A stretch of 20,783 nt of DNA. Source: a virus. The DNA lies in IMG/VR virus record IMGVR_UViG_3300009370_000207, positions 1 to 20,783 of that record. One strand, written 5' to 3'. A program made the translations under genes and the position numbers. Positions 1,336 through 11,198 of the stretch are shown piece after piece (the first letter of the stretch is position 1; each line of letters starts with the position of its first letter). Below the pieces are notes generated by a model, which was not told where the DNA came from, ran no database searches, and saw nothing but the letters and a program-made list of their open reading frames with translations.

Positions 1336-2624
1336 GTGGAGCTTTTGGAGCACTAAATCCCAAAAAAGGGAGACAAGGGGGAGTTTCAACAAGTGTTTCA
1401 ACCATAAAGGGGTCAAAAGCCGACTGGAAACCCTTTGATTGGCAAAAAAAGGTCCTGAAGGAGAGTGAAGGCAAGAATGTTGTCATCTGTGCTGGTCGTC
1501 AGGTCGGAAAGACTGAATTGGCGATAATGAAGGCTTGGATGGCAGCAACATCAGGAGAAAACAAGACTGTTTGGTGGATTTCCCCAACATTGAGGCAATG
1601 CCGAAGGGACATTATGCCCAGAGCATTGAAGCTGTTCAAGAATGACCCCCTTTTTGAGAAGATAATCGTAACAGACATGATTCTTTACCTTAAGAATGGC
1701 TCTAGGATAATTTTCCTGTCAGGAGAGCAGCAACATGCTGACCACCTGCTGGGAGCAACTTTGGACCATTGCATACTTGATGAGGCTGCCAGGTTGGACA
1801 GGAAGATATGGGAACAGTACATTGAACCCATGCTTGTCGTAAAAAATGCGAAAGTGTGGATGATTTCCACACCTTTGGGAAGAAACTGGTTTTATGAGGC
1901 TTGGATGTGGGGAAAGGACGAGACAATGGATGATTGGACATCTTTTCACACCCCATCCACAGAAAGTCCACTTATCGGAAAAAAACTGGATGTAATCCAG
2001 AAAAGGACACCAAAAGACATATTTGAGCAGGAATACCTTGCCGAATTCACAGATTCTGCTGGAGGAGCTTTTTTCGGTCTTGGATACTGTGAGGACAACT
2101 ACAGCCTTCCTGTAAAGTTTGACAAGAAGAAATCCTACACCTGTGGAGTTGATGTTGCCAGGAAGAACGACTTTACTGTTATTACGATTATTGACAACAA
2201 GGGTAGAGTGGTGTATATAGATAGATGCCAAGATGTATCATTTGAGCAGCAAAAGTCAAGAATCCATGTCGCAGTAAACAAATATGGAGGCTGTCCAGTC
2301 TGGATAGATGCTACTGGTCTCGGTTCATCCGTTTTTGAGGCTTTGAGACATTCAGGGCTCAGAATTGATGGCATAACATTGGATTACAGGACAAAAGCAG
2401 AGATAATACAGCATTTAGGATTCCAAATTGAGACAGAATCGGTAATCTATCCTTTAGGACATATTTTGATAGAAGAGTTACAGAACTATCAATTCAAGAG
2501 AAGTCCGACTGGAGTGGTAAAGTACGAGGCAGCACCTGGTCATCATGACGACTGTGTAATCTCTCTTGCTTTAGCAGTCTGGGGACAAAGGAAAACTGGA
2601 GGAACAGGTCTATGGGTATTTTAG
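1332..2624 (+). CDS. terL: Terminase large subunit (DNA-packaging ATPase/nuclease)
   Basis: A 430-residue packaging motor. The N-terminal ATPase carries Walker A GRQVGKT (residues 55-61), Walker B CILDEA (147-152, D150/E151 acidic pair) and a coupling motif MISTPLGRNW (177-186). The C-terminal RNase H-like nuclease carries the expected acidic residues: D274 in CGVDVARKND, D326 in VWIDATG, and D406/D407 in GHHDDC. This is the Terminase_6-type layout at normal length. It would bind the portal, pump DNA into the prohead using ATP and cut concatemers. The start overlaps the preceding gene (ATGA), and its last 13 bases overlap the portal gene. All motifs are intact. Confidence 0.97.
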   Translation: MSGAFGALNPKKGRQGGVSTSVSTIKGSKADWKPFDWQKKVLKESEGKNVVICAGRQVGKTELAIMKAWMAATSGENKTVWWISPTLRQCRRDIMPRALKLFKNDPLFEKIIVTDMILYLKNGSRIIFLSGEQQHADHLLGATLDHCILDEAARLDRKIWEQYIEPMLVVKNAKVWMISTPLGRNWFYEAWMWGKDETMDDWTSFHTPSTESPLIGKKLDVIQKRTPKDIFEQEYLAEFTDSAGGAFFGLGYCEDNYSLPVKFDKKKSYTCGVDVARKNDFTVITIIDNKGRVVYIDRCQDVSFEQQKSRIHVAVNKYGGCPVWIDATGLGSSVFEALRHSGLRIDGITLDYRTKAEIIQHLGFQIETESVIYPLGHILIEELQNYQFKRSPTGVVKYEAAPGHHDDCVISLALAVWGQRKTGGTGLWVF

Positions 2625-4009
2625 ACAATTTTAAGAAAAATTTTAGGAGCACATTGAATTTGGACTTTTGGAGGAGATTGAACAGGAATCCTCCTAGTTC
2701 TGAAAGATATATGCAGATAGCAACTGGTATAGGTAATCAAAACTTAAAAAAGACAACCATACCAACAATGTCACAAAAGGATATGGTAGATGCATACATG
2801 TCTGCTGTATATGCAGCAACAAAGAGAATTGCAGATGCGATAGCATTGACACCCTTTTATTCATATACAACAGATAATAACGAATTAAAGAAGAATCTTG
2901 ATTTCTCAAGCCCTTTTTATAAACTGTTCATGAATCCAAACCCAATTATGGACCATATGGAAGTTATGGAAAGGTTGTCTTTGGATTTGGATTTGACAGG
3001 AAATGCTTATGCATATATAGTGAAAGACGAAAAAGGTATGCCTGTTGAGATACATCCATTGCTTTCGCAAAATGTAACTGTTGTTCCAGAGAAGGAGGAC
3101 AATGATGACGGACACCTTGTTGCTGGTTATCTGTACAGTTTGGACAGCATTGACAGCAGTTATCCCAATTTTGTTGATGATGGAAGGACAACAGCCTTTG
3201 CAAGGGATGAAGTCATTCACTTCAAGACAGCAAACCCAAAATCACTATTCTACGGATTCTCTCCATTGGAGGCAGCCAGGTATTCTGTTGACACAGACAC
3301 AGAGATGGGTGTACAAAGATTGAGACTATTGCAGAATAGGGCGATACCAGAGGGGTTATTGGTTTCACAGAGACCATTGTCTTCTGAAGATGCCGAAAGG
3401 ATAAGAACACAATGGAATCAGCTTTATCAGGGAAGAAACCAGAGAGGGAAACTCGCTGTGCTTGATGCTGGTTCTTTTGAGTTCCAGAGATTGGGACTTT
3501 CTGCTGAGGAACTTGAATTCCAAAAAGGAAAGGATTCTGTATGGCAGGAGATATTCGCCATATACAGAGTTCCATTTGCGATACTGGGTGGACCACAGAC
3601 GAACAAGGCAACAGTTGATGCAGCAGAGAGAATATTCGTCAAGGATGCACTAAAGCCAAGATTGGCTAAAATACAGGCAACATTTAACAAATGGCTAATG
3701 CCATTGTTCAAGGAAAACATGATAATGCAGTTTGATGACCCAGCAAGTAAGGACAGCTCTTTCAGGATGGAAGAGAAAAAGACAAACCTCCAGCTTGGGA
3801 TAACAACAATAAATGAAGAAAGGGCAAAAGATGGACTAGGTCCTGTTGAATGGGGAGCAGAACCAATTCTCCAGCAGCAGATGATTCCTTATATGGAAAA
3901 CCCTATAGGAACGGAAAAAGACCTCTTGGATGAAGAGATAGATGACCTGAACTACTGGATGAAGAAACTTGACGAAGATAGCGAGGCATCTGAAGATTTA
4001 AAAGACTGA
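2612..4009 (+). CDS. Portal protein, HK97 type
   Basis: A 465-residue protein of the HK97-like portal family, recognised from VYAATKRIADAIALTPFYSY near the N-terminus, VIHFKT followed by FYGFSPLEAARYSVD in the middle, and FAILGG about residue 325 with the helical wing after it. It forms the dodecameric DNA channel at one capsid vertex, where terminase and later the connector dock. It starts 13 bases before the terminase stop. The C-terminus is acidic (DEDSEASEDLKD). The last codons read GAT TTA AAA GAC TGA, containing a TTTAAAA slippery heptamer in register. The -1 frame runs straight on into the MuF-like gene, so a longer portal-MuF fusion of about 716 residues may also be made. Confidence 0.95.
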   Translation: MGILDNFKKNFRSTLNLDFWRRLNRNPPSSERYMQIATGIGNQNLKKTTIPTMSQKDMVDAYMSAVYAATKRIADAIALTPFYSYTTDNNELKKNLDFSSPFYKLFMNPNPIMDHMEVMERLSLDLDLTGNAYAYIVKDEKGMPVEIHPLLSQNVTVVPEKEDNDDGHLVAGYLYSLDSIDSSYPNFVDDGRTTAFARDEVIHFKTANPKSLFYGFSPLEAARYSVDTDTEMGVQRLRLLQNRAIPEGLLVSQRPLSSEDAERIRTQWNQLYQGRNQRGKLAVLDAGSFEFQRLGLSAEELEFQKGKDSVWQEIFAIYRVPFAILGGPQTNKATVDAAERIFVKDALKPRLAKIQATFNKWLMPLFKENMIMQFDDPASKDSSFRMEEKKTNLQLGITTINEERAKDGLGPVEWGAEPILQQQMIPYMENPIGTEKDLLDEEIDDLNYWMKKLDEDSEASEDLKD

Positions 4010-4036
4010 AGTCGTGGCAACCCCTGATTTCAGGGG
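3997..4036 (+). other. Putative -1 frameshift signal: TTTAAAA plus hairpin
   Basis: TTTAAAA (3997-4003) is in U UUA AAA register with the portal frame, and the portal stop TGA (4007) follows at once. Downstream, CCCCTG-ATTT-CAGGGG (4021-4036) forms a stable 6-bp hairpin, with GGC (4016-4018) able to pair with GCT (4039-4041) beyond an AA/AA internal loop. The spacer of 12-17 bases is longer than the usual 5-9 for a stimulatory stem. The -1 frame is open from 3994 through 4761. Confidence 0.6.
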
Positions 4037-4761
4037 AAGCTCTCATAGAGAAAAGGGATGCAAAGTCAAAACAAATAGAAAGAACCCTTTTTGTTGAGAT
4101 TTCAAAGTATTATGTAAAATTTTTGCGAGAGGTCAGTCTGAACATATCAAAAGCAGACAAGGCTTACAGGATAATGAAAAAGGACATCAATGACGACATG
4201 ATAGACCTCATTCTTCCGAGCCAGGCAGAAAAGCTAGATGAATTCATAAAACTCATAGCTCCCATACTTCTTATAGGATACAAGGATTCGTTTGAATCTA
4301 TGGGTGGAACTTTTTCACAAAAAAACAGCTATATACAAAAATCATTGAATATAGAAAAAGCTCTTTTCAACAATATGATGGCAAATACATTTTTGTCATT
4401 GAGATTGTCTTTGAAAAATGCCTTTTCTGTAAACCTGAGCCAAAAAGAGATAAAAGATGTCGTGGGGAAGATACTTGACAACAACCAGGCAAAAGCCAGG
4501 CTTATAGCACGAACAGAATCCCTGAGAACAGCAAATGTGGGAATTTTCGCAGCAACAGTACAGGACAATGAAGTTCAGGGTTATGAGTGGGTTGCAGTAA
4601 TGGACAGGGTGACAAGAGAGCACCATGCTAGGGTCAATGGGGAAAGGATAGAAAAGGGAGGATATTTTTCAAACGGACTACAGTACCCACTTGACCCAAA
4701 TGGACCACCAGAAGAGGTTTGTAATTGTCGTTGTATTGCGATTCCGTTGCGAAAAGTGTAA
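4003..4761 (+). CDS. MuF-like minor head morphogenesis protein, read in -1 frame from portal
   Basis: The C-terminal part is a Phage_Mu_F domain: IARTESLRTANVG, then EWVAVMDRVTREHHARVNG, then PNGPPEEVCNCRC. Such proteins bind the portal inside the prohead and aid assembly or are injected. From 4123 the ORF has only a TTG with no ribosome site. Upstream, the same frame is open to 3994 and codes for 40 protein-like residues (including LKSWQPLISGEALIEKRDAK and QIERTLFVEISKYYVKF) typical of a MuF N-terminus. There is no ATG, GTG or TTG between 3994 and 4123, so entry by -1 slippage at 3997-4003 is the simplest reading (252 residues after the slip). Alternatives are initiation at CTG 4006, or TTG 4123 giving 212 residues. 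Confidence 0.85.
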   Translation, partial: RLKSWQPLISGEALIEKRDAKSKQIERTLFVEISKYYVKFLREVSLNISKADKAYRIMKKDINDDMIDLILPSQAEKLDEFIKLIAPILLIGYKDSFESMGGTFSQKNSYIQKSLNIEKALFNNMMANTFLSLRLSLKNAFSVNLSQKEIKDVVGKILDNNQAKARLIARTESLRTANVGIFAATVQDNEVQGYEWVAVMDRVTREHHARVNGERIEKGGYFSNGLQYPLDPNGPPEEVCNCRCIAIPLRKV

Positions 4762-10449: not shown

Positions 10450-10860
10450 ATGGCAAAGAAAAAAAAGAAAGGGTTAAGTCTGATAGATTTAGGTGCTAGA
10501 CAGGAATTTATCAGCACCCTTGATATAGATGATGAAAAGACTAGATGGATGATTGGACCATTGTCAGCAAGACAGTTGTTCGGTGTTTATGCTAAGTATG
10601 AGGGAGATGGAGAGGAAGATGTTCTCCAATCCCCTGCTCAGTCGGCACTAATGGCAATGGACTTTGTGAAATATGGTTTAAAACAGGTTGTTGGACCTTT
10701 AAGTAGTGGCTTTACTATGACAAGCTCAACAGACTTGGGGTTTTCTTCCAAGTGTGTAAAGTCATCTTACTTGGACCGACTGCCTACTGAACTTATTGTT
10801 GAACTTGGTGGGCAGATAGCCACCATCTCAACTCTGGGGACAGAACAAAAAAAAGGTTAA
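10450..10860 (+). CDS. Tail assembly chaperone, short form (gpG-like)
   Basis: A 136-residue protein with a strong ribosome site (GAGGAGG). The N-terminus is very Lys-rich (MAKKKKKGLSL), then acidic/helical with DEKTRWMIGPLSARQLFGVY and LMAMDFVKYGLKQVVGPLSS. By analogy with lambda gpG it would bind the tape measure before the tube polymerises. It ends CAA AAA AAA GGT TAA: the eight-A run holds a slippery A AAA AAA, and the -1 frame continues to 11198. This gene order (tube, chaperone pair with frameshift, tape measure) is the conserved tailed-phage arrangement. Confidence 0.85.
   Translation: MAKKKKKGLSLIDLGARQEFISTLDIDDEKTRWMIGPLSARQLFGVYAKYEGDGEEDVLQSPAQSALMAMDFVKYGLKQVVGPLSSGFTMTSSTDLGFSSKCVKSSYLDRLPTELIVELGGQIATISTLGTEQKKG
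10848..10854 (+). other. -1 slippery heptamer AAAAAAA of the tail chaperone genes
   Basis: Zero-frame codons are CAA AAA AAA GGT TAA. The heptamer A AAA AAA followed by G is a strong, well-known -1 slippery site. The -1 frame after it is open for 114 codons with protein-like content. The zero-frame stop is only one codon beyond. Confidence 0.8.
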
Positions 10861-11198
10861 GGACTGTTCTTGCTGGTGTAAGAGCAGGGTATGACTGCAA
10901 ATCCTGCAAGAGAGCAGGGTTATGTGAGATGAGAGGGTGTATTCCTGGTGTGAAGGCATCCACTCCTTACATTATTGATGGAGAAGAAGTATGGTATTGT
11001 CCTTTAACATATAACAATGTGTTTACAAACCAATGTATCACATTGTGGAAAGCATCAAGACAGGGATTCCTGGCAGACAGGGGTTCTTACTTGGACCAAT
11101 CATACATCTTCACAGAGGTTGTTGAAATGTTAGAGCATGACCAAAATGAATATGAGCATAATGAGATGAAGAGCAAACAAAAAAGGATTAAGAGATAG
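10854..11198 (+). CDS. Tail assembly chaperone, -1 frameshift extension (gpT-like)
   Basis: Slippage at 10848-10854 would join 135 residues of the short form to 114 residues here (249 in total). The extension begins RLRTVLAGVRAGYDCKSCKR and carries four Cys in C-x2-C-x5-C-x4-C spacing (codons at 10896, 10905, 10923, 10938), a likely metal-binding knuckle. It then continues through VWYCPLTYNNVFTNQCITLW and a charged helical end. ATG 10929 is an internal Met; starting there would lose three of the four Cys, and it has no clear ribosome site. The stop TAG overlaps the tape-measure GTG (TAGTG). In lambda the G-T product recruits the tape measure to the tube. Confidence 0.8.
   Translation, partial: RLRTVLAGVRAGYDCKSCKRAGLCEMRGCIPGVKASTPYIIDGEEVWYCPLTYNNVFTNQCITLWKASRQGFLADRGSYLDQSYIFTEVVEMLEHDQNEYEHNEMKSKQKRIKR

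Follow-up and report, generated by a model that had tools for sequence, protein, structure and literature searches.

The portal and MuF genes of a bacterial virus are, with high probability, joined by a programmed -1 ribosomal frameshift, which would yield the normal portal protein together with a minor portal-MuF fusion of 716 aa. The window, by which we mean the whole stretch of DNA analysed, is a 20,783-bp IMG/VR virus record whose profile matches outline a siphovirus-type head and tail module (terminase, portal, MuF, protease, capsid and onward). All features of the junction described below lie on the plus strand.

A slippery heptamer precedes a MuF frame that lacks a start

The portal gene (2612-4009, 465 aa), the 0-frame product of the site, starts with an ATG behind a strong Shine-Dalgarno (SD) sequence, GGAGG, and matches Phage_portal (PF04860, E = 5.9e-59) and phrog_12 (E = 6.8e-65). 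Read directly, its 3' end is ...GAA GAT TTA AAA GAC TGA, in which TTTAAAA (3997-4003) stands in the register of a slippery heptamer, T TTA AAA, with the TGA stop (4007-4009) two codons past it. The MuF frame, -1 relative to the portal and read from the heptamer (3997-4761), is open from 3994 to its stop at 4761 and matches Phage_Mu_F (PF04233, E = 1.4e-12; 48.8 bits at a curated cut-off of 29.6) and phrog_2468 (E = 1.8e-28).

No ATG, GTG or TTG occurs in this frame over the 40 codons (4003-4122) between the heptamer and the TTG at 4123-4125. This TTG, the first conventional start codon, is probably not used: its best SD energy is only -0.4 kcal/mol, and in an AlphaFold model of MuF (built from an 11-sequence alignment; pLDDT 82.9, pTM 0.79) it is residue 43, within a first helix spanning residues 13-60, so that a protein begun there would lack almost two thirds of the helix. 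The same helix also aligns with natural portal-MuF fusions. A Foldseek comparison of the model with the PDB was uninformative, returning helical bundles and no match at E<=0.001. The first-pass annotation, made from the letters of the window, had correctly described the end of the portal gene and the register of its heptamer, the extent of the open -1 frame, the 40 residues devoid of start codons, the missing ribosome site at TTG 4123 and the length of the fusion; it did not mention a CTG (4006) that overlaps the portal TGA, or an ATA (4045) preceded by AGGGG.

Taken by itself, the window makes a modest case against chance: in codon shuffles, any in-register X XXY YYZ heptamer within the 16-nt overlap occurred with P = 0.021, and zero start codons over the 43 open codons with P = 0.028. 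The arrangement exceeds chance because it is conserved in relatives.

The arrangement is conserved in related viruses

Portal searches yielded six related IMG/VR contigs (L002, L003-L005, L058 and L059) representing three further lineages. The portals of L002-L005 share 73-76% identity with that of the window, and those of L058 and L059 are more distant, reaching 77% identity in the most conserved 91 aa. Scanning portal patterns across 84,980 prokaryote genomes found no relative, and cultured phages held no close one, the portal and MuF of the window having <60% identity there.

In all six contigs MuF lies in the -1 frame relative to the portal, without a conserved, well-placed start. The heptamer T TTA AAA is kept in L002, L058 and L059, whereas L003-L005 read CCA AAA AAA GAT or CGA AAA AAA GAT, which puts A AAA AAA, likewise a standard slippery heptamer, into the unchanged register, and have the following stop placed differently. 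The heptamer thus varies between lineages while its register stays constant, although the three lineages with T TTA AAA, out of the four known including the window, may share it by descent. Alignment with homologues had been proposed as a check in the first-pass annotation, along with two observations that would count against a frameshift, a normal MuF start in relatives and an indel joining the frames; in none of the six contigs (0/6) were the frames joined or was a start both conserved and well placed, and the -1 relation with an in-register heptamer was present in every one. The window and L002 moreover share seven identical codons, GAG GCA TCT GAA GAT TTA AAA, in a portal tail that has otherwise diverged (P = 0.02).

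Since MuF in the relatives is only 29-38% identical, the start-less stretch is not simply young and unchanged. As a separate observation, identity between the window and L002-L005 falls, close to the proposed frameshift site, from the portal value given above to 30-38% in the adjoining MuF, suggesting that in these viruses MuF changes, or is swapped, much faster than the portal.

The stretch upstream of any start evolves as protein in the -1 frame

We compared window-L002, L058-L059 and L003-L004, as three independent pairs, by their substitutions from the heptamer up to the first start. The pN/pS ratio in the -1 frame was 0.31, 0.31 and 0.32, respectively (the window-L002 value covering the first 16 codons of the start-less stretch), as against 0.8-2.3 in the other two frames. 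Pooled, and with the heptamer codons left out, it was 0.34, compared with a median of 0.86 in column shuffles (P = 0.0006), and it was 0.37 (P = 0.004) when codons from the ATA or ATG onward were excluded. Codon usage across 4006-4122 scored +2.0 bits in the -1 frame vs -47 and -7.4 in the others, a value above the off-frame 99th percentile (-0.9) and below the true-coding 5th percentile (4.9). By these measures, selection at the protein level acts on the -1 reading of the stretch that separates the heptamer from the first possible start. The claim of a normal portal accompanied by a minor portal-MuF fusion is supported, both by comparative genomics and by a start-less stretch that evolves as -1 coding sequence.

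Candidate stimulatory elements flank the heptamer

A hairpin, CCCCTG-ATTT-CAGGGG (4021-4036), starts 17 nt past the heptamer and is a putative stimulator. Folding bore out its 6 bp, as claimed from inspection, closed by a 4-nt loop, at a minimum free energy of -15.1 kcal/mol for 4007-4060, which is not exceptional (z -1.1). A stable hairpin lies 12-17 nt past the heptamer in every lineage (-10.5 to -15.4 kcal/mol; z -1.1 to -3.7), and the stems of L058 and L059 differ by one compensatory G-C to C-G double change. Stimulatory structures are usually found 5-9 nt past the heptamer, so that the hairpins seen here are farther away.

On the other side, an SD-like AGG (3984-3986, within GAGG at 3983-3986) lies 10 nt upstream of the heptamer, the same spacing as that of the stimulating SD of E. 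coli dnaX, and may act in a similar way. The pattern AGG-N10-TTTAAAAG-N-CT is invariant in an alignment of the window, L002, L058 and L059. The pairing energy of this AGG (-5.7) is ordinary for the portal gene, and no clear counterpart occurs in L003-L005; a strong upstream SD was accordingly rejected as a defining element.

Alternative routes to a MuF protein

The best-surviving alternative, which we nevertheless regard as improbable, is coupled re-initiation at a non-AUG codon, in which ribosomes leaving the portal gene would restart at CTG (4006), or at ATA (4045) behind AGGGG, and release free MuF. The CTG overlaps the portal stop in the window, L002 and L058, and SD-like sequences (AGGGG, GAGGG or GAGAGG) precede the ATA in the window (-6.5), L002 (-5.8) and L003 (-5.3 kcal/mol), and an ATA is preceded in this way throughout L003-L005. 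However, L059 has CTA and TTA at the two places and L003-L005 lack a CTG at the stop, so neither codon is a conserved start. The CTG has no SD (-1.0), and AUA is a very inefficient start codon in bacteria. Coding constraint is moreover present upstream of the ATA (the P = 0.004 result above), the first helix of the MuF model begins ahead of it, at residue 13, and re-initiation leaves the conserved in-register heptamers unexplained.

Somewhat less probable still is that MuF is an ordinary separate gene begun at the internal TTG 4123 (in relatives, at the first ATG or TTG), the heptamer and the open stretch then being coincidental. Codons of this kind are present, the MuF domain proper lies beyond them, and TTG 4437 of L002 has an SD-like sequence (-5.8). 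Yet no SD was found at TTG 4123 or at the ATGs of L003, L058 and L059, and the positions of these codons vary by lineage, at 13, 17, 43 and 43 codons into the open frame, L058 and L059 having their SD-less ATG 13 codons past the heptamer. The location of TTG 4123 inside the first helix, and the constraint on the upstream stretch as protein, also speak against this reading.

Transcriptional slippage on an A run, generating mRNA with joined frames, would suit the seven A of L003-L005 and the nine A of the unrelated locus L149 (below), but it is very improbable: it is the register of the heptamer that is conserved and not the A run, and the T3A4 run of the window, L002, L058 and L059 is too short for such slippage. 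Just as improbable is that the split reflects a mistake in sequencing or assembly, or that a fused gene, of the kind found as single ORFs in distant relatives, has recently decayed. The same split recurs in seven contigs from several metagenomes, in four lineages and with two heptamers, making sequencing error very unlikely, and purifying selection is seen on the MuF body (pN/pS 0.06 in L058-L059 and 0.14 in L003-L004).

A model for metering MuF on the portal ring

Under the preferred reading, a programmed -1 frameshift, ribosomes translating the portal gene would reach T TTA AAA and for the most part continue to the TGA, giving the 465-aa portal, while a minority would slip back by one base (TTA AAA to TTT AAA), perhaps aided by the AGG and the hairpin, bypass the TGA and produce the 716-aa fusion. 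The portal half of that product matches the phrog_2662 profile at 58-424 and the MuF half at 496-705; only frameshifting would place the two in one polypeptide. Fusion subunits would then take their places in the 12-subunit portal ring, and the slippage rate would set the number of MuF copies per virion.

In some phages the portal ring must bear only one or few copies of MuF, and a defined fraction of portal-MuF subunits would, if the model is true, be a genetic answer to the asymmetric decoration of a symmetric 12-fold ring. Production by frameshifting would make MuF copy number directly testable. It would also bear on annotation, since gene callers would miss or mis-start such MuF proteins, including those with C-terminal cargo; in the window, 40 residues would be lost.

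The -1 products of L058 (3504-5561) and L059 (3507-5588) are ~690 aa long and consist of MuF and a ~400-residue C-terminal part that has no Pfam match and carries a zinc-metalloprotease-like motif (WRHEFGH and WRHEFAH, respectively); they look like MuF proteins with C-terminal cargo. The start of the contig holding L058 (locus L158) encodes, at the contig's other end, another MuF; this one is partial, has a divergent C-terminal part of its own, with HEFAH, and may be a paralogue, a strain variant or the result of an assembly join.

Other recoding candidates

The window also contains the classical -1 frameshift site of the tail assembly chaperone (10450-11198) ahead of the tape measure gene, where CAA AAA AAA GGT TAA holds the heptamer A AAA AAA (10848-10854), the -1 frame is open to 11198 and strong hairpins lie downstream. 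Its presence in this virus counts in favour of the portal-MuF reading.

Two portal-MuF junctions unrelated to that of the window, each known from a single contig, are likewise start-less in the -1 frame with an in-register heptamer. L149 (2401-2431) has A AAA AAA/A AAA AAG followed by 71-72 codons without a start (P = 0.004); because its run comprises nine A, transcriptional slippage or an indel is also possible there, and a DNA search for its relatives in phages found none. L105 (3428-3437) has G GGT TTT TAG and 31 start-less codons, a weak case (P = 0.29). Four further candidates were rejected as recoding, L080 and L083 having a TTG that overlaps the TGA, and L095 and L116 an ATGA, all of them normal overlapping starts. 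An in-frame TGA interrupts the MuF-like C-terminal part of a fused ORF in L065 (4630-4632; NPG-TGA-CEYCQELDGK) and could reflect a reassigned TGA, readthrough or an error. The related ~712-aa portals of L035, L036, L038 and L040 are extended by a part weakly matching DUF5824 and not MuF; L035-L040 share the portal fold, and were rejected as portal-MuF proteins on account of their DUF5824-like end.

Comparison with known systems

The first-pass annotation had pointed to fused portal-MuF genes in some phages, which was borne out, and had known of no description of such a fusion made by recoding. A putative slippage of this type has been published for Brevibacillus phage Emery, though it was not recognised as portal-MuF. 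In that phage FrameD predicted slippage in an SPP1 gp7-like gene, extending the product from 58.9 to 82.5 kDa; a portal was not among the listed proteins (PMC4168068; PMC4909266). Its authors named gp4 a head morphogenesis protein, made no mention of a portal-MuF fusion and compared no relatives (PMC4168068, PMC4909266). The deposited record (KC595516) gives a joined CDS for gp4/gp5 (L160:3171-5350). We found that gp4 (520 aa) takes the portal's place after the terminase and matches Portal_T4 (E = 5e-4, below its cut-off) and phrog_213 (E = 0.0045), both weakly; it is probably the portal missing from that genome. A heptamer, T TTT TTA, lies 13 nt before the gp4 stop, and the -1 frame encodes MuF (PF04233, E = 3e-12) and offers no start codon over 54 codons. 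A portal-like short product, a heptamer and a start-less MuF together indicate that Emery very probably uses the same device with an unrelated portal, the differences from the window being the portal family (T4-like in Emery) and the heptamer (T TTT TTA vs T TTA AAA). Our literature search, conducted mostly outside subscription journals, found no portal-MuF frameshift described as such.

Tentatively, and at somewhat below even odds, portal-MuF recoding may have arisen several times (in the window clade, Emery, L149 and perhaps L105) and serve generally to equip a fixed minority of portal subunits with a covalently attached MuF, with slippage in L058 and L059 also metering a protein cargo carried in the head.

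Portal and MuF are encoded in one ORF in distant relatives (L008, L009, L012, L015, L025, L029, L063 and L064, with both Pfam domains) and in the cultured Geobacillus phage GBK2, and a profile survey classed 51 loci as fused portal-MuF, a count in which some are the same contig fetched twice. These natural fusions favour the reading of the window's junction as a source of joined protein. Single-ORF fusions have also been reported in Microbacterium phage clusters EA3/EA5/EA8/EB (PMC7302621). Such fusions (phrog_2662, GBK2, Microbacterium phages) have the same two domains in the same order, at 654-741 aa in the complete loci tested vs 716 aa here, but they place MuF on every portal subunit and involve no recoding. 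The MuF protein of SPP1, gp7, binds the portal and occurs in 1-2 copies per capsid (PMC5576092; binding also PMC6316719). The likeness lies in a MuF associated with the portal in few copies; gp6 and gp7, however, are two separate genes, gp7 having an ATG and a strong SD, and their binding is non-covalent.

Among recoded genes, lambda gpG/gpG-T resembles the proposed site in that a -1 slip close to where the upstream gene ends yields a longer protein as a minor product, but the product is a tail chaperone and not a virion head protein. The -1 frameshifts of Lactobacillus phage A2 and of Listeria phages affect major capsid or tail proteins, as cited in later papers (PMC10274946, PMC4493119, PMC7260188); they too give a minor, C-terminally extended virion protein, but the protein is another one and its extension is not MuF. 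The PRFect paper names MuF-like genes among possible unrecognised frameshifts (PMC10274946). With a similar case already published as the putative slippage of Emery, the window clade appears to represent a new and better supported variant of frameshifting in phage structural genes.
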